48,005 bases of DNA from Pseudomonadota bacterium (lineage in GTDB: Bacteria > Pseudomonadota > Gammaproteobacteria > Burkholderiales > Rhodocyclaceae), in NCBI GenBank assembly GCA_018262285.1, contig JAGTRX010000006.1:1-48005 (forward strand), read 5' to 3'. The position numbers and the translations under genes are program-made. Below are positions 581 through 19,297 of the stretch, in pieces. The notes beneath the pieces are model-generated. The model had not been told where the DNA came from and made no database searches. It saw nothing but the letters and a program-made list of their open reading frames with translations. Every line of letters starts with the position of its first letter. Positions within the stretch are counted from its first letter, which is position 1.

Positions 581-599
581 GGGCGCATTGGGGTGTGAC

Positions 600-1814
600 A
601 TGTCAAGGTTGACAGATATCCATATTCGGAATTGGATCAAAGCGGGAAAGCCGGTAGCAAAATCATTTGGCAATGGTCTGACATTCACTCTTTCGGCCAG
701 TGGATATGCGGCATGGGTTCTTCGTTACCGCCTCCATGGCAAGCAGCGCGAACTCACTATTGGTCGTTATCCAGAGTTTTCGATTAAAAAAGCTACCGAA
801 GAGGCGTTCAAGCGTCGCGTGGAAGTCGTCGGTGGCATTGATGTGGCCGGGGAAAAGCGGCGACAAAAAAAGGCAGATCGTACCGCTAAAACGGTCAAGG
901 AACTTGGTGATTTCTACTATGAAGACCTTGCCGCGCGCGGCCGCTCAGTTGAAGGTTCTCGGTGGCATCTCGACGCATACATCGAGCCCAAACTGGGAGG
1001 GTTGCAACTTCATGAGGTCACACCCGACGAAGTGTTGGCGATGTGCGATTCAATTAAAGCCAAGCCTCGGCGACCAGATAAAGAATCCGCTCCTTCATCA
1101 GCACGCGAAGTTCTTGGCACCCTACGCAGGATGTTCGATTTTGCAATAGAACGTCGTTTAGCAAAACTCAACCCAGCAAGCGCCATCAAGCCAAGAACCG
1201 TTGCAGAAAAGAAGAGCCGCGAACGCGCACTTACGCGAGAAGAGCTATCTACTCTCTGGGCAGCTCTTCAAACCGACCAAATATCGCCTACTGCGGGGAT
1301 GGCAATAAGAATGCTGTATTTGACCTTGGCCCGAAAAACCGAGGTTACAAGATCCGCCTGGAGTGAGATCAGCTTTGATCGGGCTGAATGGGACATTCCG
1401 GCCGAACGGACAAAGACTAGAAAGCCTCATCGGGTTTATCTTTCGACACAAGCCCTTACAATTCTCGAAGAAGCCAAGCGGCTTGGGTGTGAGTCACCAT
1501 TTGTATTTCCTGGAAAGAATGAAAAACCAATTGGCGACACGACGCTGAACGAAGCGCTCAAGCGGGCCAAATATTTTGGCTTGAATCCCTTCACAATTCA
1601 CGACTCTCGAAGAACAGCCTCTACCTTCTTGCATGAGATGGATTGGCCCTCAGATGTGATAGAGAAAGCCCTCAACCATACGGCTCAGGGTATTCGTGCA
1701 GTTTATAACCGCGCTGAGTATGCAGATCGACGGCGATGCATGTTGCAGGCATGGGCGGATTTTCTCGATTCGCTTATTGAAAACCGAAAGCAACAACGCG
1801 AATTTCCCACGTGA
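600..1814 (+). CDS. int: Tyrosine integrase, DUF4102/P4 type
   Basis: This protein of about 404 residues should catalyse insertion and excision of the island. The N-terminus matches the DUF4102 arm-binding domain found in P4-like and island integrases (FTLSASGYAAWVLRYRLHG, then a TIGRYPEFS-like strand). A SAM-like core-binding domain follows. The catalytic domain shows the Arg box in LTLARKTEVTRSAW, the H-x-x-R box in IHDSRRTAS, and the C-terminal His and Tyr in LNHTAQGIRAVYNRAEY. All are in the expected order, so it looks intact. ATG 600 is preferred over an in-frame TTG at 588. It lies about 160 bases inside the attL core and reads into the island, the usual position for an element's own integrase. 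Confidence 0.93.
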   Translation: MSRLTDIHIRNWIKAGKPVAKSFGNGLTFTLSASGYAAWVLRYRLHGKQRELTIGRYPEFSIKKATEEAFKRRVEVVGGIDVAGEKRRQKKADRTAKTVKELGDFYYEDLAARGRSVEGSRWHLDAYIEPKLGGLQLHEVTPDEVLAMCDSIKAKPRRPDKESAPSSAREVLGTLRRMFDFAIERRLAKLNPASAIKPRTVAEKKSRERALTREELSTLWAALQTDQISPTAGMAIRMLYLTLARKTEVTRSAWSEISFDRAEWDIPAERTKTRKPHRVYLSTQALTILEEAKRLGCESPFVFPGKNEKPIGDTTLNEALKRAKYFGLNPFTIHDSRRTASTFLHEMDWPSDVIEKALNHTAQGIRAVYNRAEYADRRRCMLQAWADFLDSLIENRKQQREFPT

Positions 1815-1822
1815 GGAAGTGG

Positions 1823-1852
1823 TTGACAAAAAATTAAAACCGGGGGTATTCT
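1823..1852 (+). promoter_or_regulatory. Candidate sigma70 promoter
   Basis: TTGACA at 1823-1828 and TATTCT at 1847-1852 are separated by 18 bases, a good -35 and an acceptable -10. It begins 8 bases after the integrase stop codon and would transcribe the AlpA-like gene at 2067 and the genes behind it. The leader would be about 200 bases; no clear structure was noted in it. Confidence 0.5.
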
Positions 1853-2066
1853 GGAAAAGCGGTGATGGAGTTAATGCGTCATTGCTGCACTGGCCTTGAT
1901 ACCCAAATCTAAAGCCAGGCTTTCATTCCTCTGGGGCGCCCAGCTCGGTGTAGGCGCGCAACTACGAGTATCGAGTGGTCCTTTACGGAACCGCAAGAAG
2001 TTCTTATTGAATTTTTGCCCCGTAACTAACCACATCATTGGTAATCGTTGTTGAAGGAGGAATACC

Positions 2067-2345
2067 ATGTCCAAAAAATATCCCGACAATAAGCTCGGGG
2101 TGCGGAAAGTCTCGGTGGGCGCTACCTTTGAACTCCCACGTGCACTTCGCGAGTTCGACAATCTCCCGGATTCGGCCCACGTAAGGAAGTCTGTCTTAGA
2201 ATTCCTATATTCTTGTTCCGGATCGACAGTTATACGCAGAGTGCACGACGGCCTTCTGCCTGCGCCACACAAACTGTCACCACGCATTTCTGCATGGAAT
2301 GTTGGAGAGTTACGCCGTAACCTTGCTAGCAAAAAAGGGGAGTGA
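2067..2345 (+). CDS. AlpA-like phage/island regulatory protein
   Basis: This 92-residue protein has a C-terminal half that fits the AlpA/excisionase winged-helix pattern. It has a turn-helix with SGSTVIRRVHDGLLPAPHK followed by a basic wing and the ISAWNVGELRRNL end, matching the usual pattern of strand, W and a helix with a terminal basic patch. AlpA in P4-like elements activates the integrase or acts as a recombination directionality factor. The N-terminal 35 residues have no recognised match. A strong ribosome-binding site (AAGGAGG, 2054-2060) stands 6 bases before ATG 2067. It lies next to the integrase and 1 base before the next gene, so translational coupling is likely. Role in excision is inferred. 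Confidence 0.7.
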   Translation: MSKKYPDNKLGVRKVSVGATFELPRALREFDNLPDSAHVRKSVLEFLYSCSGSTVIRRVHDGLLPAPHKLSPRISAWNVGELRRNLASKKGE

Positions 2346-2346
2346 C

Positions 2347-3324
2347 ATGTCCATTACCCCCCCCATGATCACGCTAGGTGAAATGGTCTCTATGCCCATG
2401 GAGACCATAGAATATGCATTTCCTGGTCTTTTGCCGACGGCGCGCAATGTTTTTTTCCAAGTTGCGCCAGGTGTCGATTTCCTATGTTTCGCAAATTTAA
2501 TTGCTTTCAGCATGGCCGGCGGAGCACGTTTTCCGCCTTACGGCACTCCGAAACCGGTAGTTACGCTCGTCATTTCCTGTAGAGGCTATAAGACCAGAAC
2601 AAGCGAGCAGATGGTGTTGAATTTCCGAAAGCGACCTGTAGGCCCGATTTATATACGCGCAAGAAATAACCTTCTATTTCGATATCTAGAGGATGCCGAA
2701 ATTGGCAAGCTAACCAACAGGTACGATCAAGATGAGTTTGTCGACTCGCTTCCTCCGAATTGTCGCTGTGTACTTTTCCATGACGCCCACCATTTGATCG
2801 CGAAGAAACAAGAACATGATGTGGTCAGCAATGCGACATTCGGTCGTCTCCTTTCTGCCTTGAACGAAAAGGGGATCGCGACTTTTGTTTTCTTCAAAAC
2901 ACGCCGGAAGGCTAGTTCTGAAATCGCGGATGAACTTTTTCAGGTGGCCGGAGATCGCCTGATCACTCTTTCCGAGAACCCGGCTGCGCCCCGCGAATAT
3001 GGTGGAGGCTGCACAGTCGAGCGCCCGAAAACGAGCGAGCACGAGGACGTTCCACTCCGCTTCTCATTCTGGTATTCGGTCATCGACGACAAGCTTGAAT
3101 ACGGATGGGAATGCCGCGACCCTGCGGACGCGAACGGTGCAAAGCAAATCGAAATGCTGGAGCGGCGCAAACGTGTTCAAGACATGCTTGAGCGAGGGAT
3201 GCCGCAAAAAGAGATCGCGGGCGAGCTTGGGGTCGATGCGGCAACGATATCGCGAGACGTTGCAAAGGTGAGGGCTGCGATTGCGAAGAAAGCCACTGCC
3301 GAATCTGGCGACGAAGATTTTTGA
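2347..3324 (+). CDS. RecA-like fold protein without Walker A, C-terminal HTH
   Basis: This protein has 325 residues. The order of strands resembles RepA/RecA-type plasmid ATPases: PVVTLVIS, then a Walker-B-like CRCVLFHDAHHL, then IATFVFFKTRR and a LITLSE strand. No GxxxxGK[ST] Walker A is visible, so ATP binding is doubtful. The last 60 residues form a clear helix-turn-helix (MLERGMPQKEIAGELGVDAATISRDV). The product may therefore be a DNA-binding regulator or a degenerate replication or partition protein of the element. ATG 2347 follows a GGGGAG-type site and the AlpA stop by one base. The longer open frame from 2299 overlaps alpA and is not preferred. Function is unknown beyond this. Confidence 0.6.
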   Translation: MSITPPMITLGEMVSMPMETIEYAFPGLLPTARNVFFQVAPGVDFLCFANLIAFSMAGGARFPPYGTPKPVVTLVISCRGYKTRTSEQMVLNFRKRPVGPIYIRARNNLLFRYLEDAEIGKLTNRYDQDEFVDSLPPNCRCVLFHDAHHLIAKKQEHDVVSNATFGRLLSALNEKGIATFVFFKTRRKASSEIADELFQVAGDRLITLSENPAAPREYGGGCTVERPKTSEHEDVPLRFSFWYSVIDDKLEYGWECRDPADANGAKQIEMLERRKRVQDMLERGMPQKEIAGELGVDAATISRDVAKVRAAIAKKATAESGDEDF

Positions 3325-3421
3325 CATTGCGTGGCCCAGCATCGCAGAAATAAAGGGTTTGCAAGGGTGCGCACACACCCTTGCGCCCTACTTAACGAAC
3401 CCAAAACTTGGAGTACAAACC

Positions 3422-4105
3422 ATGGACCTGCCGCATATCCGTAAGGCAAAAATCAATTACCTGCTGACCCAACTGAACGATGGAAAGCGTGTCACAGACC
3501 AAGCCATCCAGTCAGTACTCACCGAGCAGGAGTGGCAAGAACTGGCGAAAGAGATCGACCAATGGAAGATTAAATGCCAACCTAGGGCGAAGCCGTATGG
3601 CCGAATGCCCTCCGAACTGGAGCGCTACGCTGACCTCATAAAGGCTGCAGATTGTTTGTTCAGTCGAGCCAAGGCCTGTCGCGACAAAACATATCCGCGT
3701 TCGGTAGGTTTCATGCTGCCCCCGATGCATCTTCGTGGTTTGACGGCCAAGGAACTGCGCTATTGCGAGGCAGAGAATGCCTACGATGACGCCCTGGAAA
3801 AGCTTGCAGAGATGTTGTCAGACGAGCCCGGTCTTGCAATTTGGCTAGATCGACCGGCCCGGTTCGGTCAGAATGATGGTACGGTATCGGCAAACCCGGA
3901 TGGTGTGCCTCGCTTGATTACCTCGCGCTCCGTGCATGCTCGTCACTACTCGCCAGGCAAGCCTACGAAAAGTTCACTCCAAAAGTGGGCATTGCAGTCC
4001 AGTCTAAACAGGTTCGATTTGTTCCTCAGCTTGGAACCACCGCCGATACCGCAGCGTTATGCGGCCAAAGTGCGGAGAACTCCTGACTTGGACGACGGAT
4101 GGTAA
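3422..4105 (+). CDS. Hypothetical protein of the mobility module
   Basis: This soluble, charged protein of about 227 residues is not recognised. It starts at ATG 3422 after a GGAG site (about 3410-3413). The frame stays open upstream to 3281 but overlaps the previous gene and lacks a good site there. The N-terminus looks helical (KINYLLTQLNDGKRVTDQAIQ); two Cys in the middle (AADCLFSRAKACR) do not form a clear metal site. It is co-directional with the AlpA-like and RecA-like genes and convergent with the Rep gene, so it probably belongs to the replication or maintenance module. Confidence 0.65.
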   Translation: MDLPHIRKAKINYLLTQLNDGKRVTDQAIQSVLTEQEWQELAKEIDQWKIKCQPRAKPYGRMPSELERYADLIKAADCLFSRAKACRDKTYPRSVGFMLPPMHLRGLTAKELRYCEAENAYDDALEKLAEMLSDEPGLAIWLDRPARFGQNDGTVSANPDGVPRLITSRSVHARHYSPGKPTKSSLQKWALQSSLNRFDLFLSLEPPPIPQRYAAKVRRTPDLDDGW

Positions 4106-4224
4106 GTTGCCAGCCTGCTATGGTCAGACGAACTATCAGTCCGCAGACTTGCAAAATTGCATGCATGCACACTTGCAATGGTCGGTGCCAATAACAAGGC
4201 ACCGACCCGGATTACACCCTTTCG

Positions 4225-5550
4225 TCAGAACAGTTCATCGCCGGATAAATCGCCGCCACCAGCGAAATCATCGTCATCGGACGTAACCACTGCATTGCAG
4301 ATGCCGCCACGACAGGACGGCATCTCCTGCCTTTCCAGCAGTTCTGCCGTCTTTGCTTTCAAGGACTCAATTACAGGCGGCACCGACACCCTGGAAAAAA
4401 CGTGATGCTCAAGGCTGTCGGGGGGCACGAACTCCCCCGGAAACACGAACCAGTCCTTCAGGTGCGGCGACAGCTTGGTACTCTGAATCGGCCAGGGTAT
4501 GGAAATATCAACCGCCGTAGCCTCCAGTATCTGCCGCTTGAACGCAGAGAACTTCTTGCTCTGGGCGTTCAGCACCGCTTTGGAGCCACCCACACAATCC
4601 AAGACTAACTCATGCTCGCGGACATTCTGGCCAGCCAAGTGTGCGCGTAAAAGGGTTTGGCTACTTGCTGGCAGCTTGGCAATTATGGCATCTGTAGGGG
4701 CACGCACACGCAGGCCCTCATCAAGGCGCAAGGTATCCCTGGCAAGTTGAAACAGCTTTTCGTAGGCCGTTGGGTTCCCCCGCCAAGCATCAGGCCGATC
4801 AAGCTGATTCTCCCGCAGCCATTTCTCGTGAACCATGACCTCAACGCGGACAACACGCTGCCCAAGTTCAACCAACTCTTGTTTGATTTCCGGGCTGGGA
4901 AACGTGGCAAAGGCATTAGGCGCATTCGGTGCCTTGATATAGGCCGAAACATTGAACTCCCGTTGTTTGATGTACAGGGTGAAGCAATTGTCCGTCCCGA
5001 AGATATAGGTTGCTTGCCTCTTCGCGTTCTGTCGCTGCGGGGCACCAGACACGTGATTCAGCACACCGTCAGCGTAATCCCGGAGTTCCTGATGCCGATT
5101 CAAAGCATCTTCGGGCGAGGGAAACTCAAACAGGAATGTCCCGGTTACCGATTTCAGGCGAACGTTCTCAGGCTTGAACTGGCTGAGGCCAAGCGCTGAA
5201 CAGCCCCTTTCGGCAGCGTAGTACTTGAGTAGCTCTAAGACGCCTTCAGCGGCGCAGGGCACACCATTAACGAGCAGGTGATTACGGCCAATCAAGCAGG
5301 CTGGTACGTTGATTTGTACCTCGTACCCACCAACACGCCCCCGTACATTACTGTTAGCGGGGATGGCCTGTACTTTATATTCTGCCCCGGTCAGCGGGCT
5401 AACGACTGGTACTAGGTCGAAGTATTCAGCCTTGATTTCACCATCCTCGTTAACCTTGCGGTTAAGCTCGAACGGAAACCGGCATTGCTCATATTGTTGG
5501 TCCGATAGTTCGTTCTCGAAGCGATGGACCAGTTTGATGGTATCTACCAT
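4225..5550 (-). CDS. Replication initiator, phage gene II/X (CRI) family
   Basis: This 441-residue protein resembles the gene II/X replication proteins of filamentous phages and some plasmids, which nick one strand and start rolling-circle replication. Supporting features are the N-terminal MVDTIKLVHRFENELSDQQY segment, the GYEVQINVPACLIGRNHLLVNG strand pair, and the YAAERGCSALG and RVVRVEVMVHEKWLRE blocks. The C-terminal 40 residues are acidic and low in complexity (SDDDDFAGGGDLSGDE). A good AGGAG site precedes ATG 5550. The 460-base region upstream is hairpin-rich and may be the origin. The assignment is by overall resemblance; the catalytic Tyr was not pinned down. Confidence 0.7.
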   Translation of the reverse strand: MVDTIKLVHRFENELSDQQYEQCRFPFELNRKVNEDGEIKAEYFDLVPVVSPLTGAEYKVQAIPANSNVRGRVGGYEVQINVPACLIGRNHLLVNGVPCAAEGVLELLKYYAAERGCSALGLSQFKPENVRLKSVTGTFLFEFPSPEDALNRHQELRDYADGVLNHVSGAPQRQNAKRQATYIFGTDNCFTLYIKQREFNVSAYIKAPNAPNAFATFPSPEIKQELVELGQRVVRVEVMVHEKWLRENQLDRPDAWRGNPTAYEKLFQLARDTLRLDEGLRVRAPTDAIIAKLPASSQTLLRAHLAGQNVREHELVLDCVGGSKAVLNAQSKKFSAFKRQILEATAVDISIPWPIQSTKLSPHLKDWFVFPGEFVPPDSLEHHVFSRVSVPPVIESLKAKTAELLERQEMPSCRGGICNAVVTSDDDDFAGGGDLSGDELF

Positions 5551-6011
5551 GACTATTCTCCTGGATCAACACAGCCATAGACCTACACTTGTTGCCTAGT
5601 GAGTAAGAGCAACTGGTATGTAGGTGTTACGGTTATGTAATTGGTAGTAGTTACTTACGTGCATCTTTCAGCCCATCACGAAAACCTGGAAACAGCTTCG
5701 TGGGGGCCTACGATGCGGCGACACCTCTGTAACCACAGACCGGAGGAATGTTTGGTCTGTCGTCAGCGGCAAGTAATTTGCTAAATTACTGTGCTGAAAA
5801 TTGCGTAGGTCTTGGTGGAATTTTCGGGAAAACTAGCGTTAAGGCGTGCCAAATTTTTGAGCCTTAAACTCAAAAGCGGGGCGCCGCAAGAGCAAAACCC
5901 ATTCAGCGATCTGCTCAGTTCCTGGTGCCGAATACCACACAAGCGTTCACTTCCCTGGACTAGCATTTGTGCCAACTGTGAATTTGTAAGCGGCTGCGCT
6001 ATATTTTGCGG
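5551..6011. other. Non-coding region upstream of rep; candidate origin/control region
   Basis: No convincing gene lies in these 461 bases between the divergent rep and IHF-like genes. It holds AGTAATTT-GCT-AAATTACT (5772-5790, perfect 8-bp arms) and TTTTGAG-CCTTAAA-CTCAAAA (5855-5875, perfect 7-bp arms). A CAGACC...GGTCTG pair lies near 5737-5760. The 14-mer TGTTGCCTAGTGAG at 5590-5603 recurs at 25996-26009. Position beside a rolling-circle-type initiator suggests an origin and promoters for both flanking genes. The nick site is not identified. Confidence 0.45.
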
Positions 6012-6305
6012 ATGACTCGCTCCAAACTCATTGCCCAGCTTGTTGAGCGCTTCCTGACGTTGTCCGCGAAGGATTCTGAAGTAGCGGTTTCATTGATAAT
6101 CGATTCGATTGGGGATGCCCTCGCACATGGCCATCGTATTGAGATTCGGGGATTCGGCAGCTTCCGCGCCATCTATCGCCGGCCCCGAATCGGCAGAAAC
6201 CCGAGATCGGGTGAACGGGTTGATGTTCCTGCGAAATATGTCCCGCACTTTAAGGCGGGGATGCAATTGCGGGAACGGGTCGATCCAAATTTAGTTTGGG
6301 TATAG
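6012..6305 (+). CDS. IHF-beta/HU family DNA-bending protein
   Basis: This protein of about 97 residues matches integration host factor beta: [10 protein letters not shown] at the start, then [42 protein letters not shown] and a final MQLRERV. The beta-arm that inserts into the minor groove (RNPRSGE) is intact. Chromosomal ihfB normally lies behind rpsA, so this is an extra, element-borne copy. It could serve as accessory factor for the element's integrase or rolling-circle origin and free it from host IHF. ATG 6012 gives the family-typical N-terminus; no strong ribosome-binding site is visible. Confidence 0.88.
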
Positions 6306-6392
6306 GGCGGAATCGTGGTCTGCTCTCTTTCCGGCGCCCCCATTCCGTTCGCGCTGTGCGCTTTGGCGCCGGTTTCTCCGACGACAAGCTAA

Positions 6393-7028
6393 ATGACTGC
6401 ACTCGTATTCTTAATTCAGCCTCATCAAGTCTGCATGGCCATGGATACCTTAGTCATCGGCGCCGACGACAGAAAGCCCATGAACTTTCAGAGTAAGTTC
6501 TTATCATTTCCAGAGAGCGATCTAGTCGTTGCAGGTACTGGCCACGCCGGGTTTATCAATGGATGGTTTGAGTGTCTTTCCTCTTTTTCGGGTACGGAAT
6601 ATATAGACAAACTGAATATCATTGCGCCTGAAATTTTCCAAGAGTCCGTTAACACCGCAGGTGATTTAGGCGAGGTCACTGCTACGATTTATCACTTCGG
6701 CTATTCAAAAGCTGAAGCTAGGTATGTTGGATATGCTTACCGCTCAACAGCTGGTTTTCAGTCTGAGCCGCTCCCATATGATTGTTTTGGAGTTAAGCCA
6801 GAGGTAAGCGTAGAACTGCCCGAAAACATAGAATTTCCAAGCCTACTCGTTGATCTCATACTCAAGCAACAGAACCAAGATCAAATGCTGCCTATTGAGC
6901 AACAAGTCGGAATTGGCGGCGAGATCGAGTTTGTTGTATTGGCGAACCGAAGTATCCACATCGAAACTGTTCATCGCTTTGCCACGTATGAAAGAGAACT
7001 TCAATATATTGAGAGCCGTGGTGCATAA
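6393..7028 (+). CDS. HslV/proteasome-like Ntn-hydrolase candidate
   Basis: This 211-residue protein is not a known family to me, but its N-terminus lines up with the HslV/proteasome beta fold. A Thr directly follows the initiator Met (MTALVFLIQ), then comes VCMAMDTLV at the place of the HslV 'VVIAGDGQ' strand. Next is KFLSFPESDLVVAGTGHAGFINGWFE, matching the HslV run of Lys, the 'kVIAGFAG' strand and the long helix. If Thr2 is exposed it would be the nucleophile of a threonine protease or amidase. The C-terminal 80 residues have no match. No HslU-type ATPase is near. Its neighbours downstream are a PP2C phosphatase and two protein kinases in the same direction, after a 355-base gap. Confidence 0.5.
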   Translation: MTALVFLIQPHQVCMAMDTLVIGADDRKPMNFQSKFLSFPESDLVVAGTGHAGFINGWFECLSSFSGTEYIDKLNIIAPEIFQESVNTAGDLGEVTATIYHFGYSKAEARYVGYAYRSTAGFQSEPLPYDCFGVKPEVSVELPENIEFPSLLVDLILKQQNQDQMLPIEQQVGIGGEIEFVVLANRSIHIETVHRFATYERELQYIESRGA

Positions 7029-7068
7029 CCCCGCAGTCTGAATAGACTTAATCAAGTCGATCAGCTAA

Positions 7069-7284
7069 GGCGTCAAGCTTCTTGGAGGTCTTCATTTAGC
7101 AGCGATAGCGAAATGTCAATCCATCTATTGCAAAACCGCTCCCGATATTCGGGCAGAACTGGAGCATGGCTTGGCATTCCTTGAAAACGAGGAATTACCG
7201 GATTTTGACACTGCTGAGGAGCGCCGTATCTGGCCTGATCGATGGACAGAGTTCTCCAAGCGCGAAAGTAGCCGCTACAGGTGA
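7069..7284 (+). pseudogene. Possible gene remnant between Ntn-hydrolase and PP2C genes
   Basis: After a TAA at 7066-7068 the frame stays open for 71 codons to TGA 7282-7284. It reads protein-like near its end (RAELEHGLAFLENEELPDF, then TAEERRIWPDRWTEFSK). No ATG or GTG start was found in frame. It could be the 3' end of a decayed gene or chance coding in the 355-base gap. The other strand and frames show nothing better. Confidence 0.25.
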
Positions 7285-7383
7285 CGCTGCTGATCCATGA
7301 AAAAATGATGTAGTGGGAAGTGCTTGTCGTTTGGCTTAACATAGCAAGCACGCAAGAATAACCGTAATAAAACTCGCCTATAT

Positions 7384-8547
7384 ATGAACGCAAATCCATC
7401 GTTGCTCCAAAACCAGCTAACAACTTGGCTTCTACGTAGGACTCCGGCTAATGGGGTTCGACGGGTTGCATCGCTTTCCGCAGCCATTGCGAGCGATCTG
7501 GGGAATGTTCGTGAAGACAACCAAGATAGAGCAGCCATTGCGCGTGGGTGGGATCGACATGGGCAGGAATACGCTCTTGTTGCCGTAGCCGATGGGATTG
7601 GTGGAATGCAGGATGGCGTCACTTGTGCGGCCATGACAATCGGCGTTTTCGTTGCGGCAGTAGATCAGCGTGCACAAAACGCCAGCAACAGCTCAGATCA
7701 TCCAGAAGAGTGGTTGCTTGAAGGCGCTCATGCTGCAAACCAAGCACTCTTCTCAAGGTTTCACGCTAGCGGTGGCTCGACTCTAGTCGCACTATTGCTC
7801 CGACCCGGTACTTGCCCCTACTGGCTAAGTATTGGGGATAGTCGCGTCTATTGCATGAATAACAAAGGCCTAATACAGTCCTCCATTGACGACACAATCG
7901 CAGGTCAGCTTGGCAAGAACCCAGAGGACGCTATTGAACAATCGCGATTGCTTCAGTTCGTTGGTATGGGTGCTGACCTTGAGCCTCACATCGCGAAACT
8001 CGACGCTGACTCTACAGATGCTGTAATTCTAACCACCGACGGAGTCCATTATCTGGCACCAAGTCCTGGCTGGCTGGGCCAGATAATTCACCACTCGCCT
8101 GATCCTGGTGTATGTGTAAAGCGCTTTATTGATCTCGCAAAGTGGTGTGGCGGACCAGACAACGCCACAGTTGCAATGATCACGTTGCCTGTGGAGATGC
8201 AATCTGAAACTAGGCCTGCTTACCCTTGTTTGGAGGTGTGGGATGCATACGGAGAACTGCAAGTTATCAACCCAGCGTCCTCGAAAGCATCGCCAGCCCT
8301 TATCTTAAGCCCTGCGACAACGAGCCAATCTTCACCACCTCCCAGTGTTGCACGTTTAGACCTTGCAATTGATGAGCGTCTAGGTACATCTTCACCAGAA
8401 CAATCCAAATCTCGTCGGGGAAAGTCTTCTCGTAAGCCAAAGAAATCTGCTGACAAACAAAGCAATGGCCTCGATAAATTGAACGAACCGGAACTCCCCC
8501 AGCTGCACATGGAATTTCCGACGAAGTCTAACAACGAGAGTCTCTGA
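7384..8547 (+). CDS. PP2C-family serine/threonine phosphatase with basic tail
   Basis: This protein has 387 residues. Residues about 28-275 form a PP2C catalytic domain with metal-binding and structural motifs in order: GNVREDNQDR, VADGIGGMQDG (about residue 72), IGDSRVYCM, ILTTDGVHY and GGPDNATVAM. It should remove phosphate from Ser/Thr residues, probably reversing the two kinases encoded directly behind it. The last 110 residues are low in complexity, rich in Ser, Pro and Lys (SRRGKSSRKPKKSADK), and could be a kinase substrate or nucleic-acid-binding tail. It lies 4 bases before the first kinase gene. ATG 7384 gives a plausible start; no strong Shine-Dalgarno is seen. Confidence 0.88.
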   Translation: MNANPSLLQNQLTTWLLRRTPANGVRRVASLSAAIASDLGNVREDNQDRAAIARGWDRHGQEYALVAVADGIGGMQDGVTCAAMTIGVFVAAVDQRAQNASNSSDHPEEWLLEGAHAANQALFSRFHASGGSTLVALLLRPGTCPYWLSIGDSRVYCMNNKGLIQSSIDDTIAGQLGKNPEDAIEQSRLLQFVGMGADLEPHIAKLDADSTDAVILTTDGVHYLAPSPGWLGQIIHHSPDPGVCVKRFIDLAKWCGGPDNATVAMITLPVEMQSETRPAYPCLEVWDAYGELQVINPASSKASPALILSPATTSQSSPPPSVARLDLAIDERLGTSSPEQSKSRRGKSSRKPKKSADKQSNGLDKLNEPELPQLHMEFPTKSNNESL

Positions 8548-8551
8548 AATC

Positions 8552-9601
8552 ATGATTGCTGACCGTTACGAAGTCGTTGGTGCTTCTTTTGTTGGAGGCA
8601 TGGCAGCTGTTTGGCCCTGCAACGACATAGTTCTTCAACGAAAGGTCGCAATTAAGGTGATGCCTGGCAGTGCCGAAAAACGCCGGATACGCGACGAACT
8701 AAGCGCTCTCTTGAAGATGCGCTCGAACCATGTCGTTCAAGTCTACGACGTGTTGAACCTCAACAAGGACTTGGCCATTGTTCAAGAATTCGTCGAGGGC
8801 AAGGATTTATTCGATGAAGGCTTAGCTCCCAAGAACAAGAATGAGTACTTGAAGCTACTTTGGCAGATCGCGTCCGGCATCGCTAATATTCACGATCTTG
8901 ATGTCATACATCGAGACATCAAGCCTAATAACATGAAGGTCGATCCGGAAGGCGTCGTCAAAATTTTCGACTTCGGATTAGCTCGGGATGAAGGCCCGAG
9001 CGCAGCAACGCTAGGTTTTGTGGGGACTCCCGGCTTTGCTGCTCCTGAGTTATATCGTCACCACGTTACTTTTACTGCTGCGGTAGATACTTACGCCTTC
9101 GGAGCAACTGCACTTTTTCTAGGTCTTCGAGATTTGCCCCCAGAGCTTGTACATCGCCCTCCCGTGCTTTCAGGAGCCAACTACTTTTCAGCCCTACCAT
9201 TTAAGCTCGCAAAGGACGTTGAGTCGATTTTGAACACCTGCCTTGAGGAGTCCCCCTCTATCCGGCCTGCCATGCGCGACGTTAGGGATTTGCTTGCCAA
9301 ACACCTGCTTCACAATAGGCACAGGGCGTTAATTGTGTTTGATGGCAAGGCATCGTATCTCGACGCAACTCGTCCTAGTGTGGTTCTTCGCCTAGCCTCA
9401 ATTGGTGAGATTGGAATTCGCTACGATGGCTTTGACTTCCTTGTCGACAGGGTTAGTGGTGAAGTTTTCATAAATAACTCTCCCGTTGCGGTAGGTGATC
9501 ATTTGCCAGGTGCCTGCGTCGTTGCGCTGGGTGCCCCAGAACGCAAAGCAGACCGCAAGTACATCACGTTCGACCTATCTCACCCGGAGATTGTGCTGTG
9601 A
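8552..9601 (+). CDS. Ser/Thr protein kinase with C-terminal FHA-like domain
   Basis: This protein has 349 residues. Residues about 6-255 are a Hanks-type kinase with a loosened glycine loop (VVGASFVGGMAAVW), the catalytic Lys in KVAIKVM (K35), HRDIKPNN (near 120), DFGLARD (near 139) and GTPGFAAPELY. Residues about 265-345 look like a degenerate FHA domain: SVVLRLASIGEIGIRYDG, GEVFINNSPVAVGD, GACVVALG, and a final ITFDLSHPEI. The usual FHA Arg/Ser/His phospho-binding residues are not obvious. It is likely soluble, since no transmembrane segment follows the kinase. Its stop overlaps the start of the second kinase by 4 bases, so co-translation is expected. Confidence 0.85.
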   Translation: MIADRYEVVGASFVGGMAAVWPCNDIVLQRKVAIKVMPGSAEKRRIRDELSALLKMRSNHVVQVYDVLNLNKDLAIVQEFVEGKDLFDEGLAPKNKNEYLKLLWQIASGIANIHDLDVIHRDIKPNNMKVDPEGVVKIFDFGLARDEGPSAATLGFVGTPGFAAPELYRHHVTFTAAVDTYAFGATALFLGLRDLPPELVHRPPVLSGANYFSALPFKLAKDVESILNTCLEESPSIRPAMRDVRDLLAKHLLHNRHRALIVFDGKASYLDATRPSVVLRLASIGEIGIRYDGFDFLVDRVSGEVFINNSPVAVGDHLPGACVVALGAPERKADRKYITFDLSHPEIVL

Positions 9602-10677
9602 GCGGCCCGCTAAAACCTAGTGATATTATTGGTGATCGTTATGAAATTCTTCGGTACGTGGGCGAAGGCGGTATGCAGTTCGTGTATCAAGCCAAGGATA
9701 TATTGACTGATCGGCATGTCGCGCTGAAAACCCCCAAAAACAAGTCTGCAACCAAGCGCTTCAGGAGAAGTGCAGTAGTTGCCGCCAAGGTAAACCATCC
9801 GAATGTCGCAAAAACTCTTGATTATCTCAAGGTAGGCACTCAGCGTTACCTAATTGAGGAATATATAGAGGGCAGTGATCTGAAAGCCGCTCTGCTTCAA
9901 GAAACGGCGTATCTTGACCCCTATCTAGCCGCCAAGGTACTGCACCACCTTGCAAAAGGGGTTGCAGCTGCCCACCACGCTGGGGTTGTGCACCGAGACC
10001 TGAAGCCCACGAACATCATGGTCATTGGTGGCTATTCATTGCACGAACTGAAAGTCACCGATTTTGGGATTGCCAGGATGGCGGATGAGGAGTTAAGGGA
10101 GGCAGTAGAAGGTGGCGATGCAAGCATGTCTGCCTCACAAACAGCGGTAGGGGCGCTTCCCTACATGGCTCCCGAGGCTATTGACGAACCTAGCACCGTA
10201 GGCCCTCCAGCAGATATCTGGTCAGTTGGAGCGATGATGTACCACCTACTCTGTGGCCAATATCCGTTCGGTCAAGGTCTAAGGGCCGTTCCTAAGATTA
10301 TGACTGCGAAACTTCCAGACCCCCCTGAATTCCTATCCGCCAATCCACAGTTTGCACCTCTTGCCAAAGAGATACTTGAAATCGCCTTTTCGTGTCTAAA
10401 GAAAGACCCGATGGAGCGACCGACGGCAGACCAGCTAGTCGAGAAATGTAGCACCCTTTGCTACACCTCGTCACCCAGGCAACAAGGGGTTGTATGTGAT
10501 TTCCGATATGGGGCCTGGGGGTTCATCAGAACGCCAGAAGGTAGCGTTTTTTTTCATCGCGAATGTGTTTACGGCCCAATGCCAGTGGTTGGTGATCCTG
10601 TCCTTTTCGCCAGCTACGACGGTGGCGGAGCTGACCGCGCGCTGCCCGTCGTGAAACTGACCGGAGCAACTGATTGA
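9598..10677 (+). CDS. Ser/Thr protein kinase with C-terminal cold-shock/OB-like domain
   Basis: This 359-residue protein starts at GTG 9598, overlapping the previous stop (GTGA). The kinase domain (about 15-285) has a good glycine loop (VGEGGMQFVYQA), HVALKTP (Lys44), VVHRDLKPTNIMV, DFGIARM and LPYMAPEAI. The last 65 residues read like a cold-shock/OB fold: GVVCDFRYGAWGFIR, then VFFHRECV, then VVGDPVLFASYD and RALPVVKL. This matches the usual G-x-V...GFI...VFFH...G-D-x-V-x-F pattern. A kinase fused to a nucleic-acid-binding-type fold beside a PP2C suggests nucleic-acid-sensing signalling. This is inference; the kinase part is certain. Confidence 0.85.
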   Translation: MSGPLKPSDIIGDRYEILRYVGEGGMQFVYQAKDILTDRHVALKTPKNKSATKRFRRSAVVAAKVNHPNVAKTLDYLKVGTQRYLIEEYIEGSDLKAALLQETAYLDPYLAAKVLHHLAKGVAAAHHAGVVHRDLKPTNIMVIGGYSLHELKVTDFGIARMADEELREAVEGGDASMSASQTAVGALPYMAPEAIDEPSTVGPPADIWSVGAMMYHLLCGQYPFGQGLRAVPKIMTAKLPDPPEFLSANPQFAPLAKEILEIAFSCLKKDPMERPTADQLVEKCSTLCYTSSPRQQGVVCDFRYGAWGFIRTPEGSVFFHRECVYGPMPVVGDPVLFASYDGGGADRALPVVKLTGATD

Positions 10678-10910
10678 CGGGTTGATGTTGTAAGAGCGAG
10701 TCTCGCTGGGGTTAACCCTCCAGTTCATATCGAAGTGTCAGGTACGGTTTTTGGGAACACCTCATTCCGAACAGCCCTCACACTATCGAAAAATGGCCAG
10801 CGCGAAACTCATGGCCGACCTATGCCGAAGGCCGAAGGTGGAAGGTGCAGCAAGCTGCCCCGCTGCAAAGTTAGCCGTTTTTCACCACTTCTGCCACTGC
10901 TCCTGTTATC
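10678..10910. other. Non-coding stretch after the kinases
   Basis: No supported gene. Two palindromes lie back to back just after the kinase stop: AGCGAG-T-CTCGCT (10695-10707) and GGGTTAACCC (10709-10718). They may mark an end of the transcript, but no T-run follows. At 10860-10877 lies one copy of an 18-bp sequence that recurs at 17312-17329. Confidence 0.4.
10860..10877 (+). repeat. 18-bp island repeat, copy 1
   Basis: CCGCTGCAAAGTTAGCCG is identical to 17312-17329. Its inner 15 bases (GCTGCAAAGTTAGCC) occur again, inverted, at 33155-33169. All copies are inside the island and in non-coding sequence. Confidence 0.8.
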
Positions 10911-11083
10911 TTAACTCGACGCCCTCGTGGCGCAGATTGTTCACCTGGGCACTCACCGGCCACGCCTCCATCTCTTTGTCTGGATAGGTATGGGCTAGAC
11001 AGAGCAGCAGATTGACGTCACTAGCACCGTTTGGCGGGCACTTCAGAATGCGCAAGGCTGCCCTTGCCTTTCGGCTTGGTCAA
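10911..11083 (-). pseudogene. SRAP/YedK (HMCES-like) C-terminal remnant
   Basis: Read on the minus strand, this frame ends at TAA (10911-10913) and gives LLLCLAHTYPDKEMEAWPVS followed by AQVNNLRHEGVEL. This resembles the C-terminal end of SOS-response-associated peptidases of the YedK/HMCES family (EM-x-AWPVS-x-x-VN...). That family crosslinks to abasic sites in single-stranded DNA through an N-terminal Cys2. Only about 55 codons are left; the frame is broken upstream and no N-terminal Met-Cys start is visible, so the gene is dead. It indicates decay at this junction. Confidence 0.45.
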
Positions 11084-11147
11084 AGTCTCTGCGGGGTTTC
11101 CGCCACCGGCAGCGGATTATCGACTTATGTTTCTATACGCCTCAAGC

Positions 11148-11369
11148 CTAAACAATCCAAACGCCACGCTCAGTTGAAACAAGCGCGCCTCGTGCCTCTT
11201 CTTGTGCGATGTAATCCGCCAACTTTTCGGCTTCATGATCCCGAAAAGTAACATGCGTTTTAGAACCATAAAGATTTGAAGTGACATGAGTGCAATCTGT
11301 CTTAGGAATGAGACCCTGTTCAGTTACTACAGATGACTTGAAGTCGAGTGATGGAGACGATTTTTTCAT
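11148..11369 (-). CDS. Small hypothetical protein
   Basis: This is a 73-residue protein starting at ATG 11369, with an AAAGGG element a few bases upstream. The sequence MKKSSPSLDFKSSVVTEQ and the later TFRDHEAEKLADYIAQEEA look like a real small soluble protein with a C-terminal helix. No family is recognised. The open frame extends to 11429, but the extra residues have no better start. It is co-directional with the Mrr-like gene upstream, 114 bases away. Confidence 0.45.
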   Translation of the reverse strand: MKKSSPSLDFKSSVVTEQGLIPKTDCTHVTSNLYGSKTHVTFRDHEAEKLADYIAQEEARGALVSTERGVWIV

Positions 11370-11483
11370 AAATGCCCTTTCTATATAAACGGTTTTTGGT
11401 TCGAAAACAACATTGGAACAGCCAATCATTGATCAATGTAACTCTGCCCGCGCTGCGATGCCAATTGCCACAGCCTGATTGGC

Positions 11484-12323
11484 TTACGTGTTGATAGTGC
11501 CCTTACACACCGGATATTGAGAACACCCCCAAAACGAGTTACCCGCATTGCCGCCGCGTTTGGCGGTTCTTATTACCATCGGACTACCGCATTTTGGACA
11601 ACTGGGTATTGCCGTTGAGGCGGTCAATGTCACCGGAACGCCGCCCGTTTCTTTCACCATCCGCAGCATGGTGCTGGCTGGCACCAGTTCGATAGAGCGC
11701 CCTTCAACGAATCGTCTGGCTTCTTCGGTGAACTCGCCGGAAGCAACAACGAACCCACCGACAGCACCTTCGGCAGACATGACCCCATATAGCTCCCGAA
11801 CAATGGCAACGCCAACTTTCAGGACTTTCCACTGTTTGCACTGAACAAAGTATTTGTCTTGACCGGAGCGCAGTTCCAAATCAACACCGCCGTCCGGGCC
11901 ATCGCCACCTCGTTCGATGACTTGGAATCCTTTACGCCGAAAGACTTCGGCAGTCAGACCTTCAAACTCCCGCCATGAAATGCTTTCCAAAGCTGTGCGT
12001 GTAGGGTTGTTCACAACTTCCCGGTGCAAAGCTGATTGGCGATGTCTTCTGAAAACGGAAATGCCTGCGCCAAGCAGAAAAGCAACGGGGAAGATGTACT
12101 GCAAAAACATGCTAAAGGTGATCAGCATCTGCCGAACCATGCCGCTTCCAACGGTTTGCCCAAGGTTCTTCATGTCTGCAGCCACAAATGAAGGCGGGGG
12201 TAGCGCAGCTATGAAGTGAAAAATCAAGAACGATACCAAAGCGAGAATCACCCCCGCTTGCCAAGGCAACTTGGAAGCAATCTCGATTAGGTCTTCAAAG
12301 GGAGAGGATTTTTTTCGGGCCAC
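11484..12323 (-). CDS. Membrane-anchored Mrr-like nuclease with topoisomerase zinc finger
   Basis: This 279-residue protein starts at GTG 12323 (MARKKSSPFEDLI), the usual N-terminus of this family; an upstream TTG at 12359 is less likely. Two hydrophobic segments lie near residues 20-40 and 70-95. A restriction-endonuclease-like (Mrr_cat) domain follows: ISWREFEGLTAEVFRRKGF, then GGDGPDGGVDLEL and KYFVQCKQWK, giving the D...QxK catalytic pattern. The C-terminus has a four-Cys topoisomerase-type zinc finger (CPKCGSPMVIRT...FWGCSQYPVCKG). Such proteins cut DNA, often modified or foreign, and may be membrane-tethered defence nucleases. The nuclease core appears intact. It stands alone, without a modification methylase beside it. 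Confidence 0.85.
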   Translation of the reverse strand: MARKKSSPFEDLIEIASKLPWQAGVILALVSFLIFHFIAALPPPSFVAADMKNLGQTVGSGMVRQMLITFSMFLQYIFPVAFLLGAGISVFRRHRQSALHREVVNNPTRTALESISWREFEGLTAEVFRRKGFQVIERGGDGPDGGVDLELRSGQDKYFVQCKQWKVLKVGVAIVRELYGVMSAEGAVGGFVVASGEFTEEARRFVEGRSIELVPASTMLRMVKETGGVPVTLTASTAIPSCPKCGSPMVIRTAKRGGNAGNSFWGCSQYPVCKGTINT

Positions 12324-12687
12324 AGTGCAAATAGGTACTGACAGGAATGATAGGGCCAAATTATGGCAAATGAAACATAATCTGTCTGCAGGTCAGCCTT
12401 TCTGGAATTCAAGAATTGCTGCAGGCATGAGGCTTTTGCGGCGGCCACAGATTTTTCAATTTTCATCATCTCTGATGATCGACACGCGTTTCACTGCAAA
12501 AGAGCACAGTCCTTCTTGGTTTCAGAGTTGTTCTTGTTCAGTTGGAATGACAAGACGGCTGCATAGTGTTAACATTTTCCGACCAAAACAAGTGCTGATG
12601 TTTTAGGACAACAAGTTGTCGTTCCGCAAACTGGTCTCGAACCGAACACAGCGGGGCGAAAATTAATTAGTTTGAAAAGGCGCGCGA
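12324..12687. other. Divergent intergenic region, no gene recognised
   Basis: These 364 bases separate the Mrr-like gene (minus strand) from the gene at 12688 (plus strand). It is AT-rich toward the right. Open frames in it are short and without family resemblance. It should hold both promoters; no confident -35/-10 pair or hairpin was identified. Confidence 0.4.
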
Positions 12688-13551
12688 ATGGATTCGGAAC
12701 CTACAATTTCTCAGACAAAGCTCGCTGGCCCGTTCGAGGAAGAGGTCGTCGTATATCACTCGAATGGGCTGATCTGGGGCACGATTTCTCAATGGTGTTC
12801 TGTACTTAAAGCCCCATACTTCATGCCGGAGTATCTGAACAAAGCAGCCGAAACCAACGCTGCTGCAATGAAAGGGGGGCCTTACTCGACAGCCATTCAG
12901 AGCGGAAAACTGTATCGCTGGCCTCCAATTGCAGCCTCCTTAGACAACTGGTACAGCGCATGGATGCGTAAAGTGGCTAAGGGAGAACACACCCTGATGG
13001 AGTACAACAAACGTCTTGCATCTGAGCGTTTTGCCCTAAACATGGCACAGCTCAAACAGTGGGGTTATGAACTCCAGGAGAGGGAACTCCAAGCAGCAAT
13101 GTCTACAAAGATGACTCCAACACAATCTACCAGTGGTTTGGCAGAAGTCAATCAGGCAATAGAAGCGATTCAATCGCTTGCACAGGTCACACGCCGTGCG
13201 CTAGAAAGGCACGAAGATGCGATTGACGAGCAAAGCGAAAGAATTGATGACATCGAACAAAGCGATCCGGCGAGAAGAGATCCAAAAGCTTTTATTACAG
13301 TTAAGCAGCGCTGCCTTGAGCGCTCACTGTCGGTTGCCTTCGTAGTTGAAGGGCGAATGAATCTATGTCAGGCGTGTGGTCAATTTCTCCAGAAGTCAGG
13401 CGTAGAGAAAGGGCAGCCCATTAAGGAACGCTTAGACGGGTCAAATGTAATCGTCGACGTCGCTGCGTGGCGACGTGAAGATATCGACGATGCGATTGAA
13501 TATTACCTTCCAGATTTTGCCTTGCCGCGGCGACGCAAGGCACGCGACTAG
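12688..13551 (+). CDS. Hypothetical protein with coiled coil, first gene of DUF1848 cassette
   Basis: This 287-residue protein is not recognised. The middle (about 105-190) is charged and helical, including ALERHEDAIDEQSERIDDI, and probably forms a coiled coil. The last 75 residues (FITVKQRCLERSLSVAFVVE, CQACGQFLQKSG, then DVAAWRREDIDDAIEYYLPD) form a compact basic/acidic domain. A DNA-binding or phage-regulator-like fold is possible, but that is a guess. ATG 12688 follows a weak AAAAGG site. It lies 29 bases before the methyltransferase-like gene, which overlaps the DUF1848 gene, so the three look like one operon. Confidence 0.65.
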   Translation: MDSEPTISQTKLAGPFEEEVVVYHSNGLIWGTISQWCSVLKAPYFMPEYLNKAAETNAAAMKGGPYSTAIQSGKLYRWPPIAASLDNWYSAWMRKVAKGEHTLMEYNKRLASERFALNMAQLKQWGYELQERELQAAMSTKMTPTQSTSGLAEVNQAIEAIQSLAQVTRRALERHEDAIDEQSERIDDIEQSDPARRDPKAFITVKQRCLERSLSVAFVVEGRMNLCQACGQFLQKSGVEKGQPIKERLDGSNVIVDVAAWRREDIDDAIEYYLPDFALPRRRKARD

Positions 13552-13580
13552 CTGCGAACGAAATTCAGACAGGACGGTAA

Positions 13581-14396
13581 ATGGATGATCTGGACAAAGC
13601 TTTAAGCCACTTTGACTCAATGGTGGACTACGAGGTAGCACCGGTCTGTCCTGACGGAAGGAAAAGATCAGCGAGTGCGTGCCGTAAATGCCTGCAGAAA
13701 CAATACTTCCCAGGAGGTACAGTCGACTACTCATGTTCCCAACTGCGCCTTCTATATGTTCTGTGCTACTTGCCAGTTCATTTGAAGGAGAATCTCGATG
13801 TATTGGAGGGATTGAACCGGAATGGGGTTGAAAATTCTTGGGCACCATCTATTGAAGTACTTGCTCTTGGTGGTGGCCCCGGTTCTGAAATTGCAGGCTT
13901 CCAAATATTCGTTGCCAATCACGGTTTTTTCGGGTCAAACCCCGCTGGAATCGAAATAACCCGATTGGACAGGGTTGCTGAATGGTCCGAAATATTCAAG
14001 ACTGTGCGTAGCATTGCCCAAGGCACCGAAACGAAATTTAAGTACTCTAGGATCAAGGACGACGTTCGTAAAATAAATCGATACAAAGGCACATATGACC
14101 TTGTATTCTTGTCTTACATCGTCTCTGAACTTACAGATGTTGAGGCAGTTCAGCTTGGAAAGGCACTTGCTAACGTTATTAAAAAGAAATGCGTATTGGT
14201 ATTCAACGACAGAAACGAAACCGATGTCGTTAACAGGATTGATACAATCACCAAACTACTTCCGCCAGCAATTACTGAGTATGAGTCTAAATCAGCTTGT
14301 CACGTTGGAATGCCTTACCCTGAAGCAATAAAAGAAAGGGTCGGCCCCAAATTGCATCTAAGCTCATATAGGCGTGGAATTGTCGTCGTCTCATGA
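13581..14396 (+). CDS. SAM-dependent methyltransferase-like protein
   Basis: This 271-residue protein carries a Rossmann glycine motif in VLALGGGPGSEIAGF (about residue 95-105) and an acidic strand end (GIEITRLDRV) that could bind the SAM ribose. A YDLVFLSYIVSEL segment follows, at the place of motif IV. These fit class I methyltransferases; the substrate is unknown. A short Cys cluster near the N-terminus (CPDGRKRSASACRKCLQ) may bind metal. The gene overlaps the DUF1848 start by 4 bases (ATGA), indicating translational coupling and probably joint action. It is reminiscent of the pairing of three-Cys-motif partner proteins with DUF5131-type proteins, but no homology is claimed. Confidence 0.65.
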   Translation: MDDLDKALSHFDSMVDYEVAPVCPDGRKRSASACRKCLQKQYFPGGTVDYSCSQLRLLYVLCYLPVHLKENLDVLEGLNRNGVENSWAPSIEVLALGGGPGSEIAGFQIFVANHGFFGSNPAGIEITRLDRVAEWSEIFKTVRSIAQGTETKFKYSRIKDDVRKINRYKGTYDLVFLSYIVSELTDVEAVQLGKALANVIKKKCVLVFNDRNETDVVNRIDTITKLLPPAITEYESKSACHVGMPYPEAIKERVGPKLHLSSYRRGIVVVS

Positions 14397-15328
14397 TCAT
14401 CAGCGCAAGCCGCAGAACCGACATTCCAGCTTTTTACGCCGAATGGTTCTTGAACAGAATTTCAGATGGGTATGTGCTGCTTAAAAACCCGTTCAATGCT
14501 CACCAGATTCGCCGTGTATCTCTTCGAGCAGAAGATGTCGACGCAATAGTTTTTTGGACAAGGAATGCTGAGAAACTAATACCCTCTCTGAAGATATTGG
14601 ATGCACGGGGCTATCGCTATTATTTCCAGTACACCATCACAGGCTACCCAAGATCGATCGAGCAATCGGTTCCTGCCACGCGCCGTGCGATTCAGACTTT
14701 CATTGAGCTAAGTGCATTGATAGGCCCAGAAAAGAACATATGGCGCTATGACCCCATTTTGGTATCGAACGTCACAAGCATTGACGAGCATAAGCGCATT
14801 TTCGAGAAAATTGCTCGTGCTCTTGAGGGCCACACAAACCGTGTGGTTATCAGTTTCGTAGATATGTACAAGCGGGTATCTGCAAACATTGGGCAAGTGC
14901 CGGGGCTAATAATGGAAAAAGAAACTGCCAAATGTGAAATGTTTCAAACCTTGGCTCAGCACTTTGCAAATATCTCTGCGCAGTTCGGAATGTCAATCCA
15001 GAGTTGTGCGGAGGAAATTGACCTTAGCCGTCAAGGAATCATGCATGGAAAGTGCATAGACGACGAGTTAATACGATCCTTGTTTGACATTTCTGTGGCC
15101 AGACGAAAAGACAAGAATCAAAGGCCATCATGTGCGTGCATTGAAAGTGTAGACATTGGCCAATATGACACCTGTCTTCATGGGTGCAAGTACTGTTATG
15201 CCACCACAAATCATGCTCTTGCTACACGGAACTTCGAGAAGCACAACCCAAAGAGCCCCCTTCTCTTAGGTGAGCCAGAAATGCCGCTCGAGCCAAATAT
15301 TGATCACCAGCAGGAATCACTTTTTTAG
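14393..15328 (+). CDS. DUF1848 family protein (radical-SAM-like, Cys cluster)
   Basis: This 311-residue protein begins MIISASRRTDIPAFYAEWF, the hallmark start of DUF1848, followed by KNPFNAHQIRRVSL, DAIVFWTRNAEKLI, YYFQYTITGYPRSIE and IWRYDPILVS. Near the C-terminus is a Cys cluster (RPSCACIESVDIG...CLHGCKYCYATTNH) like those that bind an iron-sulfur cluster in DNA photolyase-repair and radical-SAM relatives. The catalytic role of this family is unknown to me. It overlaps the methyltransferase-like gene by 4 bases, so the two likely work on the same substrate. Confidence 0.85.
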   Translation: MIISASRRTDIPAFYAEWFLNRISDGYVLLKNPFNAHQIRRVSLRAEDVDAIVFWTRNAEKLIPSLKILDARGYRYYFQYTITGYPRSIEQSVPATRRAIQTFIELSALIGPEKNIWRYDPILVSNVTSIDEHKRIFEKIARALEGHTNRVVISFVDMYKRVSANIGQVPGLIMEKETAKCEMFQTLAQHFANISAQFGMSIQSCAEEIDLSRQGIMHGKCIDDELIRSLFDISVARRKDKNQRPSCACIESVDIGQYDTCLHGCKYCYATTNHALATRNFEKHNPKSPLLLGEPEMPLEPNIDHQQESLF

Positions 15329-15481
15329 CAATTTCTGCGCGCCAATCAATAGACCGGCCCCGCCTTTACCTTTTACATCTAGGACAAGTGAAGACTTAGG
15401 CCGAAATTCTGACCTCCCCCAGGTTGCTTGAAGATACCTGTCGACCAAAAGCGGCCATGAGAGAACCGTTGTGCAGAAATA

Positions 15482-17116: not shown

Positions 17117-17469
17117 GTCACACTCCTACCCAATAAACCGCATTGTTTCTACCAATTCAAAAGAATAATCTTAGCGTTGCCGATTATGGCAAACAATTAT
17201 TCAAATTCAAAGTTTTTGCTGCATTATTAATAGTAATGTGTGATCTATGGCGGGGCGTTTGACATACTAAGGTGGCCGCTACGGCCGAAAAAATGCGTTC
17301 CCATAGTCGTTCCGCTGCAAAGTTAGCCGCTGATCGACCCGGCGTTGCGCCTTTGGTACGATAACGTTATGGCGCTTGCGGTTCGCGCCAATCATCCGCT
17401 AGCTGCTGCCGGTTTTCTGCCGGCCTACCGTTTCGGCTGGCTTCCTCACTTTCCCCTGGAGTCCCTATC
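17117..17469. other. Intergenic region with 18-bp repeat copy 2
   Basis: No gene is supported in these 353 bases. It contains the promoter side of the TIGR04141 gene, a hairpin GGCCG-CTA-CGGCC at 17274-17286 without a T-run, the 18-bp repeat copy at 17312-17329, and a perfect 10-bp palindrome ATAACGTTAT at 17361-17370. The composition changes sharply, from AT-rich to GC-rich, near 17260, suggesting a junction between DNA blocks of different origin. Confidence 0.4.
17312..17329 (+). repeat. 18-bp island repeat, copy 2
   Basis: Identical to 10860-10877 in the same orientation. Together the two copies bracket about 6.4 kb that holds the SRAP remnant, Mrr-like nuclease, DUF1848 cassette and TIGR04141 gene. 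Confidence 0.8.
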
Positions 17470-17802
17470 ATGTCTGATATGCATCGGGCGGCTTGTGCTC
17501 GCCCTGAAAATTTGGCTGTTCAGCCAAACCAACCACTTTTCCCGCTAGGCCAGATCGTCGCCACCCCTGCGGTACTGGAACATTTTCGCCGTCACGGTAT
17601 TGATCCATTTGAGTACCTTCGACGTCATCGTTGCGGAGATTGGGGTGGTGAACTTTGCGCCGAGGATATTGCCGCGAATCGTTCTGCGGTTCAAAACGGT
17701 TCGCGGGTATTCAGCGCCTACCGGATTGCTGGCGAGAAGGTCTGGATCATCACCGAAGCAGATCGCAGCGCAACGACACTTTTGTTTCCCGAAGAGTATT
17801 AG
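17470..17802 (+). CDS. Small plasmid/island-associated protein
   Basis: This 110-residue protein has the core FEYLRRHRCGDWGGELCAED followed by a SRVFSAYRIAGEKVWIITEAD segment. It resembles small proteins seen often on plasmids and integrative elements of proteobacteria, which have no established function. A CTGGAG site precedes ATG 17470. It lies 2 bases before the next gene. The context (small genes next to a second recombinase) suggests a piece of another mobile element. Confidence 0.65.
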   Translation: MSDMHRAACARPENLAVQPNQPLFPLGQIVATPAVLEHFRRHGIDPFEYLRRHRCGDWGGELCAEDIAANRSAVQNGSRVFSAYRIAGEKVWIITEADRSATTLLFPEEY

Positions 17803-17804
17803 CC

Positions 17805-19236: not shown

Positions 19237-19297
19237 TCCAGCATCCAGATCAGTCCTGACACTTCCAATGCCTCCGTTTCCTGCTAATCCATCAGTT

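Follow-up and report, generated by a model that had tools for sequence, protein, structure and literature searches.

Which conflict system do the three packed genes at positions 7384–10677 of contig JAGTRX010000006.1 encode, and does the gene that precedes them, at 6393, belong to it? The contig is part of assembly GCA_018262285.1, from a Rhodocyclaceae member of the Pseudomonadota, and the window analyzed here is the entire contig, 48,005 nucleotides long. The triad is very probably a kinase-kinase-phosphatase (KKP) module, in the order PfpC-PfkB-PfkA, carried on a genomic island. As such it would not be a new system but a new copy of the published anti-phage KKP. The genes concerned are the following.

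7384–8547, plus strand: PfpC-like PP2C phosphatase, the proposed antitoxin or switch of the module, 387 amino acids, 1164 bp, identified from the open reading frame, Pfam, PHROGs, and motifs
8552–9601, plus strand: PfkB-like Ser/Thr kinase with a predicted C-terminal FHA-fold domain, 349 amino acids, 1050 bp
9598–10677, plus strand: PfkA-like Ser/Thr kinase with a C-terminal cold-shock-like domain containing GFI, 359 amino acids, 1080 bp, GTG start
6393–7028, plus strand: proteasome-like protein with a predicted Ntn-hydrolase fold (from a model), 211 amino acids, judged to lie outside the module

The three enzymes can be recognized individually. The 7384 protein matches Pfam PP2C_2 (PF13672, E 2e-8, above the cut-off) and, over residues 8–382, phrog_17277 (E 3e-76). 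It carries NQDR, DGIGG, GDSR, TDG, and GGPDN, which we take to be the PP2C catalytic motifs. The Pfam kinase domain PF00069 is found in PfkB (E 3e-35) and PfkA (E 3.5e-49), and the GGM, VA[IL]K, HRD, and DFG motifs are present in both alike. A preliminary description of this DNA, made from the letters alone, had named a PP2C phosphatase and two kinases with all catalytic motifs in place, and these identities stand. Its claim of tight packing, made for these three genes only, agrees with the 4-bp gap between PfpC and PfkB and the 4-bp overlap between PfkB and PfkA. The gene at 6393 lies on the same strand, but 355 bp separate it from PfpC, and it is therefore not packed with the triad. A scan for promoters and terminators gave 4 and 6 matches, against 5.3 and 5.6 in shuffled sequences, and is thus uninformative on the transcription units.

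Phosphatase-kinase sets of this general composition are not all KKP modules. Both kinases are hit by PADLOC kinase models, among them mad6 (E 3e-41 and 4e-61), which would fit a set of the TerY or MADS type. However, these matches are confined to the kinase domain, and with the NCBIfam MADS6 model the two proteins score 98 and 137 bits, below the cut-off of 460. PADLOC, run on 10 window proteins, listed no other MADS protein. Additionally, no vWA family is found among the 30 window proteins scanned with Pfam, both flanks of the triad included, as the preliminary description had stated for TerY. We consider a TerY- or MADS-type set extremely improbable.

The closest published counterpart is KKP, described in prophage Pf6 and counted by its authors in more than 1000 further prophages (Guo et al. 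2024, PMC11341870). There, KKP was sought as a PP2C gene with two kinase genes behind it, each of 900–1300 bp; PfkB is described with an FHA domain, PfkA with a cold-shock domain that bears a GFI/A motif, and both kinases with GGM, HRD, and DFG motifs (PMC11341870). The window triad has the same order on one strand, with all three lengths inside that range. Its kinases share the three motifs, the second bears a cold-shock-like tail with GFI, and the surroundings hint at a mobile element; the FHA tail of the first kinase agrees by fold only. Gene order, domains, catalytic motifs, and family relationship are read here from the locus itself. According to the published description, the two kinases are toxic only jointly, PfpC neutralizes them, and both tails are critical to the joint toxicity (PMC11341870). 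The preliminary description had suspected a conflict-system role for the triad, which accords with its match to this anti-phage module. The window copy differs from the described modules in lying on a genomic island beside nadA, in having an FHA tail without recognizable phosphothreonine-binding motifs, and in having an Ntn-hydrolase gene upstream, which goes unmentioned in the main text of Guo et al. (PMC11341870).

The PfkA tail appears, from sequence profiles, to be related to cold-shock domains. In hhalign, an alignment of 11 PfkA tails matched 12 cold-shock proteins with a probability of 77% (E 2e-5), GFI being among the aligned residues, and control comparisons of the tails with FHA and HslV profiles stayed below 1%. 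PF00313 was found in 5 of 16 PfkA members at E ≤ 0.1 (best 2e-4), and GF[IA] occurs in all 16 tails, as GFI at residue 308 in the window protein. The cold-shock-like tail that had been proposed for the 9598 kinase is thus upheld at the level of profiles.

For the PfkB tail, the argument comes from a structural model. The last 106 residues, aligned with 10 viral relatives, gave an all-beta AlphaFold model (pLDDT 89.5), and the putative FHA-fold domain spans approximately residues 256–346. The best VIA-align match has Z 9.0 (2.5 Å across 81 residues), and all 50 matches listed are presumably FHA domains or proteins holding one, although not every title says so. Many of the leading Foldseek matches were likewise FHA or FHA-like. 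The preliminary description had named predicted structures without an FHA or OB fold in the tails as grounds for giving up its idea; for the 8552 kinase, the model and VIA-align point to an FHA fold. We propose that the PfkB tail is a divergent FHA fold, as modeled, whose phosphothreonine pocket may have been lost.

Several observations weigh against the KKP assignment. The window proteins were likened to the tested KKP proteins through the published description, not by direct alignment. PF00498 matched none of the 16 PfkB family members (the window protein and 15 relatives) at E ≤ 0.1, hhalign of the PfkB tails with 20 FHA domains of related genomes gave 3.9%, and no Foldseek match to the tail model reached E ≤ 0.001, the best being 0.013. 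The window tail lacks both GR and SxxH, the canonical phosphothreonine-binding motifs. Given these missing motifs and the lack of PF00498, hhalign, and Foldseek support, it is doubtful that this tail binds phosphopeptides. For PfkA, the window protein falls short of both PF00313 and the S1-like cut-off. Finally, no prophage was recognized around the module by gene family scans, which involved no prophage caller.

The arrangement recurs outside the window. Seventeen KKP loci were compared, 12 viral and 5 plasmid. Viral contigs were scanned with the PfkB alignment, and 80 of 87 loci were kept; the best 12 (L013–L024) have near-full-length matches, and the other 68 are weaker. A tblastn search with PfkA (E ≤ 1e-10) matched 250 plasmid records, and five among the best-scoring were examined. 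The 12 best viral loci all have the order PfpC-PfkB-PfkA. So do the 5 plasmid loci, of which four are annotated as PP2C-kinase-kinase and the fifth, L003, has its phosphatase in two frames. Equal scores mark L003, L015, and L016 as near-copies of one another, and likewise L019 and L024, and the flank upstream of PfpC extends only about 0.6 kb in L003 and 1.1 kb in L014. Of the aligned relatives, L013 is closest, with 60% identity in PfkB and 69% in PfkA. DNA at least 99% identical to the L015 triad is present in 14 of 5,426 complete E. coli genomes. In the one E. coli chromosome examined, the triad is part of a P2-like prophage, flanked by the genes for replication endonuclease and portal protein, and P2-like prophages are named as a KKP location in the published description (PMC11341870).

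Within the window's own class, a search for PfkB at E ≤ 1e-40 in 369 genomes (own included, at most five candidates scored per genome) gave two matches, the window and G401. The G401 frame is 500 amino acids long and scores alike with both kinase profiles (145 and 144 bits); it was set aside as a generic kinase. Outside the window genome, no convincing PfkB was found among these genomes, and with so few candidates scored in each, absence is unproven.

A PfpC homologue stands upstream of PfkB in each of the 12 viral and 5 plasmid loci. It is split into two frames in L003 (604–1775) and L021 (4747–5954), where both kinase frames are open. A split PfpC beside open kinases is odd if the kinases are jointly toxic, unless a sequencing error is responsible. 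In the window, a further PP2C_2 gene lies on the minus strand at 37658–38452, beyond the island.

The putative island is outlined by the neighboring genes, of which the following bear on the setting.

42–398: partial nadA, from a NadA match
588–1814, plus strand: tyrosine integrase beside the partial nadA (PF00589 E 1e-21, PF13356; phrog_1 E 3e-67)
4225–5550, minus strand: weak match to a phage replication protein (E 5e-5)
6006–6305: IHF-beta-like gene inside the island, 1.1 kb upstream of the module
18274–19236: second integrase

From the end of nadA, the order is integrase, phage-replication-like gene, IHF-like gene, Ntn gene, KKP, and a gene for an Mrr-type nuclease. Next come two overlapping genes, one methyltransferase-like and one for a DUF1848 protein, then a TIGR04141 gene and the second integrase at 18274. 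The integrase at 588–1814 suggests that a mobile element surrounds the module. At approximately six genes and 5.6 kb ahead of PfpC, it is too distant for the mobile-element criterion of the KKP paper, five genes or 3 kb (PMC11341870). The G+C content is 49–52% in stretches from 588 to 19300, compared with 54% for 19952–48005. The setting and the G+C content are consistent with a genomic island but do not prove one.

Other genes of the island deserve brief mention. The nuclease at 11484–12359 (minus strand) has an Mrr_cat domain and, at its C-terminus, a zinc ribbon; its N-terminus appears hydrophobic by eye. The methyltransferase-like gene overlaps the DUF1848 gene by 4 bases (13581–15328), and PADLOC labels them C3a159 and RTasDUF1848; no reverse transcriptase was found among the 30 window proteins scanned with Pfam. 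A TIGR04141/DUF6119 'sporadically distributed' protein is encoded at 15482–17116 on the minus strand.

The gene at 6393 had been described as an HslV-like Ntn hydrolase of the threonine type. Its product has no Pfam match up to E 1 and no NCBIfam match, and a PDB sequence search returned nothing useful; trypsin matches at E 0.4 were taken as chance. The models, built from a seven-sequence alignment, range in pLDDT from 47.6 to 80.8, with a mean below 50 in two of the five. For the best one (80.8), Foldseek returned proteasome subunits (E 7e-10), and VIA-align returned Anbu and 20S subunits, the best being Anbu 5nyw_J (Z 18.1, 2.8 Å across 182 residues). This alignment starts at residue 2 of the model and residue 1 of the chain. 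In five family sequences compared, D18, K35, and G48 never vary, and residue 2 is either Thr or Ser. These positions fit the Thr/Ser1-Asp17-Lys33-Gly47 set described for proteasome-like homologues (Fuchs et al. 2021, PMC8665760). That work describes Anbu, HslV, and 22 families of such homologues, phage-borne members included. The model thus suggests a member of the proteasome-like superfamily, with an Ntn fold and conserved positions resembling the catalytic set, and the GPH or the Firmicute cluster is a candidate by described distribution only (PMC8665760). The Ntn-hydrolase part of the earlier reading is therefore supported, whereas the HslV part was abandoned, as hhalign against 25 HslV sequences gave a probability of less than 1%. 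The PF00227 gene of the host genome lies on contig C141.

Homologues of the 6393 protein occur in 137 plasmid records, 2 viral contigs, 9 genome contigs, and 2 of 101 related genomes (own included), and are carried on IncHI2, IncX7, and Paenibacillus plasmids. Five Lactobacillus phage records hold further, barely detectable homologues (E 4e-4 to 5e-4). The family bears the label 'terminase large subunit' both in PHROGs (phrog_13702) and in the phage records. In KC5a, the one phage examined, orf35, two places beyond the Ntn homologue, has the same label; orf35 is the likelier KC5a terminase, and the label on the Ntn family is probably in error.

Could this protein be the effector of the module? 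The preliminary description had proposed that the kinases sense nucleic acid and control a protease-like effector by phosphorylation, which would make a four-gene system. The shared strand fits this proposal, as do the predicted proteasome-type fold with its conserved Thr/Ser, Asp, Lys, and Gly positions and the published suggestion that the cold-shock domain of PfkA possibly binds single-stranded nucleic acid (PMC11341870). Conversely, the 355-bp gap argues against it, and the published main text on KKP contains none of the words 'proteasome', 'HslV', and 'hydrolase' (PMC11341870). Moreover, when the DNA around each locus was scanned, the Ntn gene was found in none of the 17 KKP loci and KKP in none of 14 Ntn-homologue loci. 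Of these 14, the near relative L094, a Rhodocyclaceae MAG contig, ends inside the Ntn gene, so that its KKP side is unseen, and L101 starts within that gene; L011 nearly duplicates L012, and L010 and L096–L101 look like one lineage. Approximately six Ntn loci are therefore independent and informative, and neighborhoods were examined for 3 of the 137 plasmid records. In view of these two counts, we treat the Ntn gene as an independent mobile gene, and chance neighborhood on the genomic island is the likeliest explanation of its place beside KKP. The preliminary description had stated that lack of conservation of the 6393 gene with the kinases would speak against its idea, and the two were not found together elsewhere. 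A four-gene system with a protease-like effector is thus very unlikely. A lineage-specific version, in which a mobile Ntn hydrolase has been recruited here beside KKP and would be switched by PfkA/PfkB phosphorylation as a proteolytic effector, is highly improbable.

We propose a mechanism whose steps (toxicity, neutralization, trigger, and targets) are carried over by analogy from the published modules. PfkA and PfkB would act jointly, with both the FHA tail of PfkB and the cold-shock tail of PfkA needed. PfpC would keep the kinases and their targets dephosphorylated, holding the PfkA-PfkB pair inactive. A phage protein may then block PfpC; in the published E. coli case this is T4 Gp59, which binds PfpC and reduces its activity to a modest degree (PMC11341870). 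The freed kinases would phosphorylate many host proteins, so that growth stops and the phage cycle remains incomplete. The same phosphorylation could also tune a resident prophage.

This last step raises the question of whether KKP mainly regulates its own mobile element and is not concerned with cell defense. According to the published description, the Pf6 module regulates Pf production via the nucleoid protein MvaU (PMC11341870), and in the window the IHF-like protein would be a possible target. Its gene lies close to the module; four genes of the HU/IHF family were found in the host genome, this one included. It scores 127 bits against a cut-off of 115 for PRK00199 (NCBIfam) and falls below the cut-off of TIGR00988. 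However, an IHF-like gene was found in none of the 17 KKP loci when their DNA was scanned, and a conserved IHF neighbor of KKP was rejected on this count. Among the 14 Ntn loci, an IHF-like frame is present in one, L094; it directly follows a gene that we read by eye as pheT and is presumably an ordinary ihfA. In addition, four further KKP modules all protected E. coli against T4 and at least one of T1, T5, and T7 (PMC11341870). Lambda was unaffected by the published modules. Regulation of the element as the main role is therefore unlikely, and an anti-phage KKP module remains our preferred reading.

The analysis has consequences for both gene families. The 6393 protein represents a plasmid- and phage-borne family that has no Pfam or NCBIfam match. 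The FHA domain of PfkB may diverge beyond PF00498, and searches that demand this profile may miss KKP members, because it matched no member of the PfkB family. The triad itself leaves the list of unknown conflict systems and receives the published name KKP. It adds a module that comes from a Rhodocyclaceae-like genome and lies on an island not recognized as a prophage.

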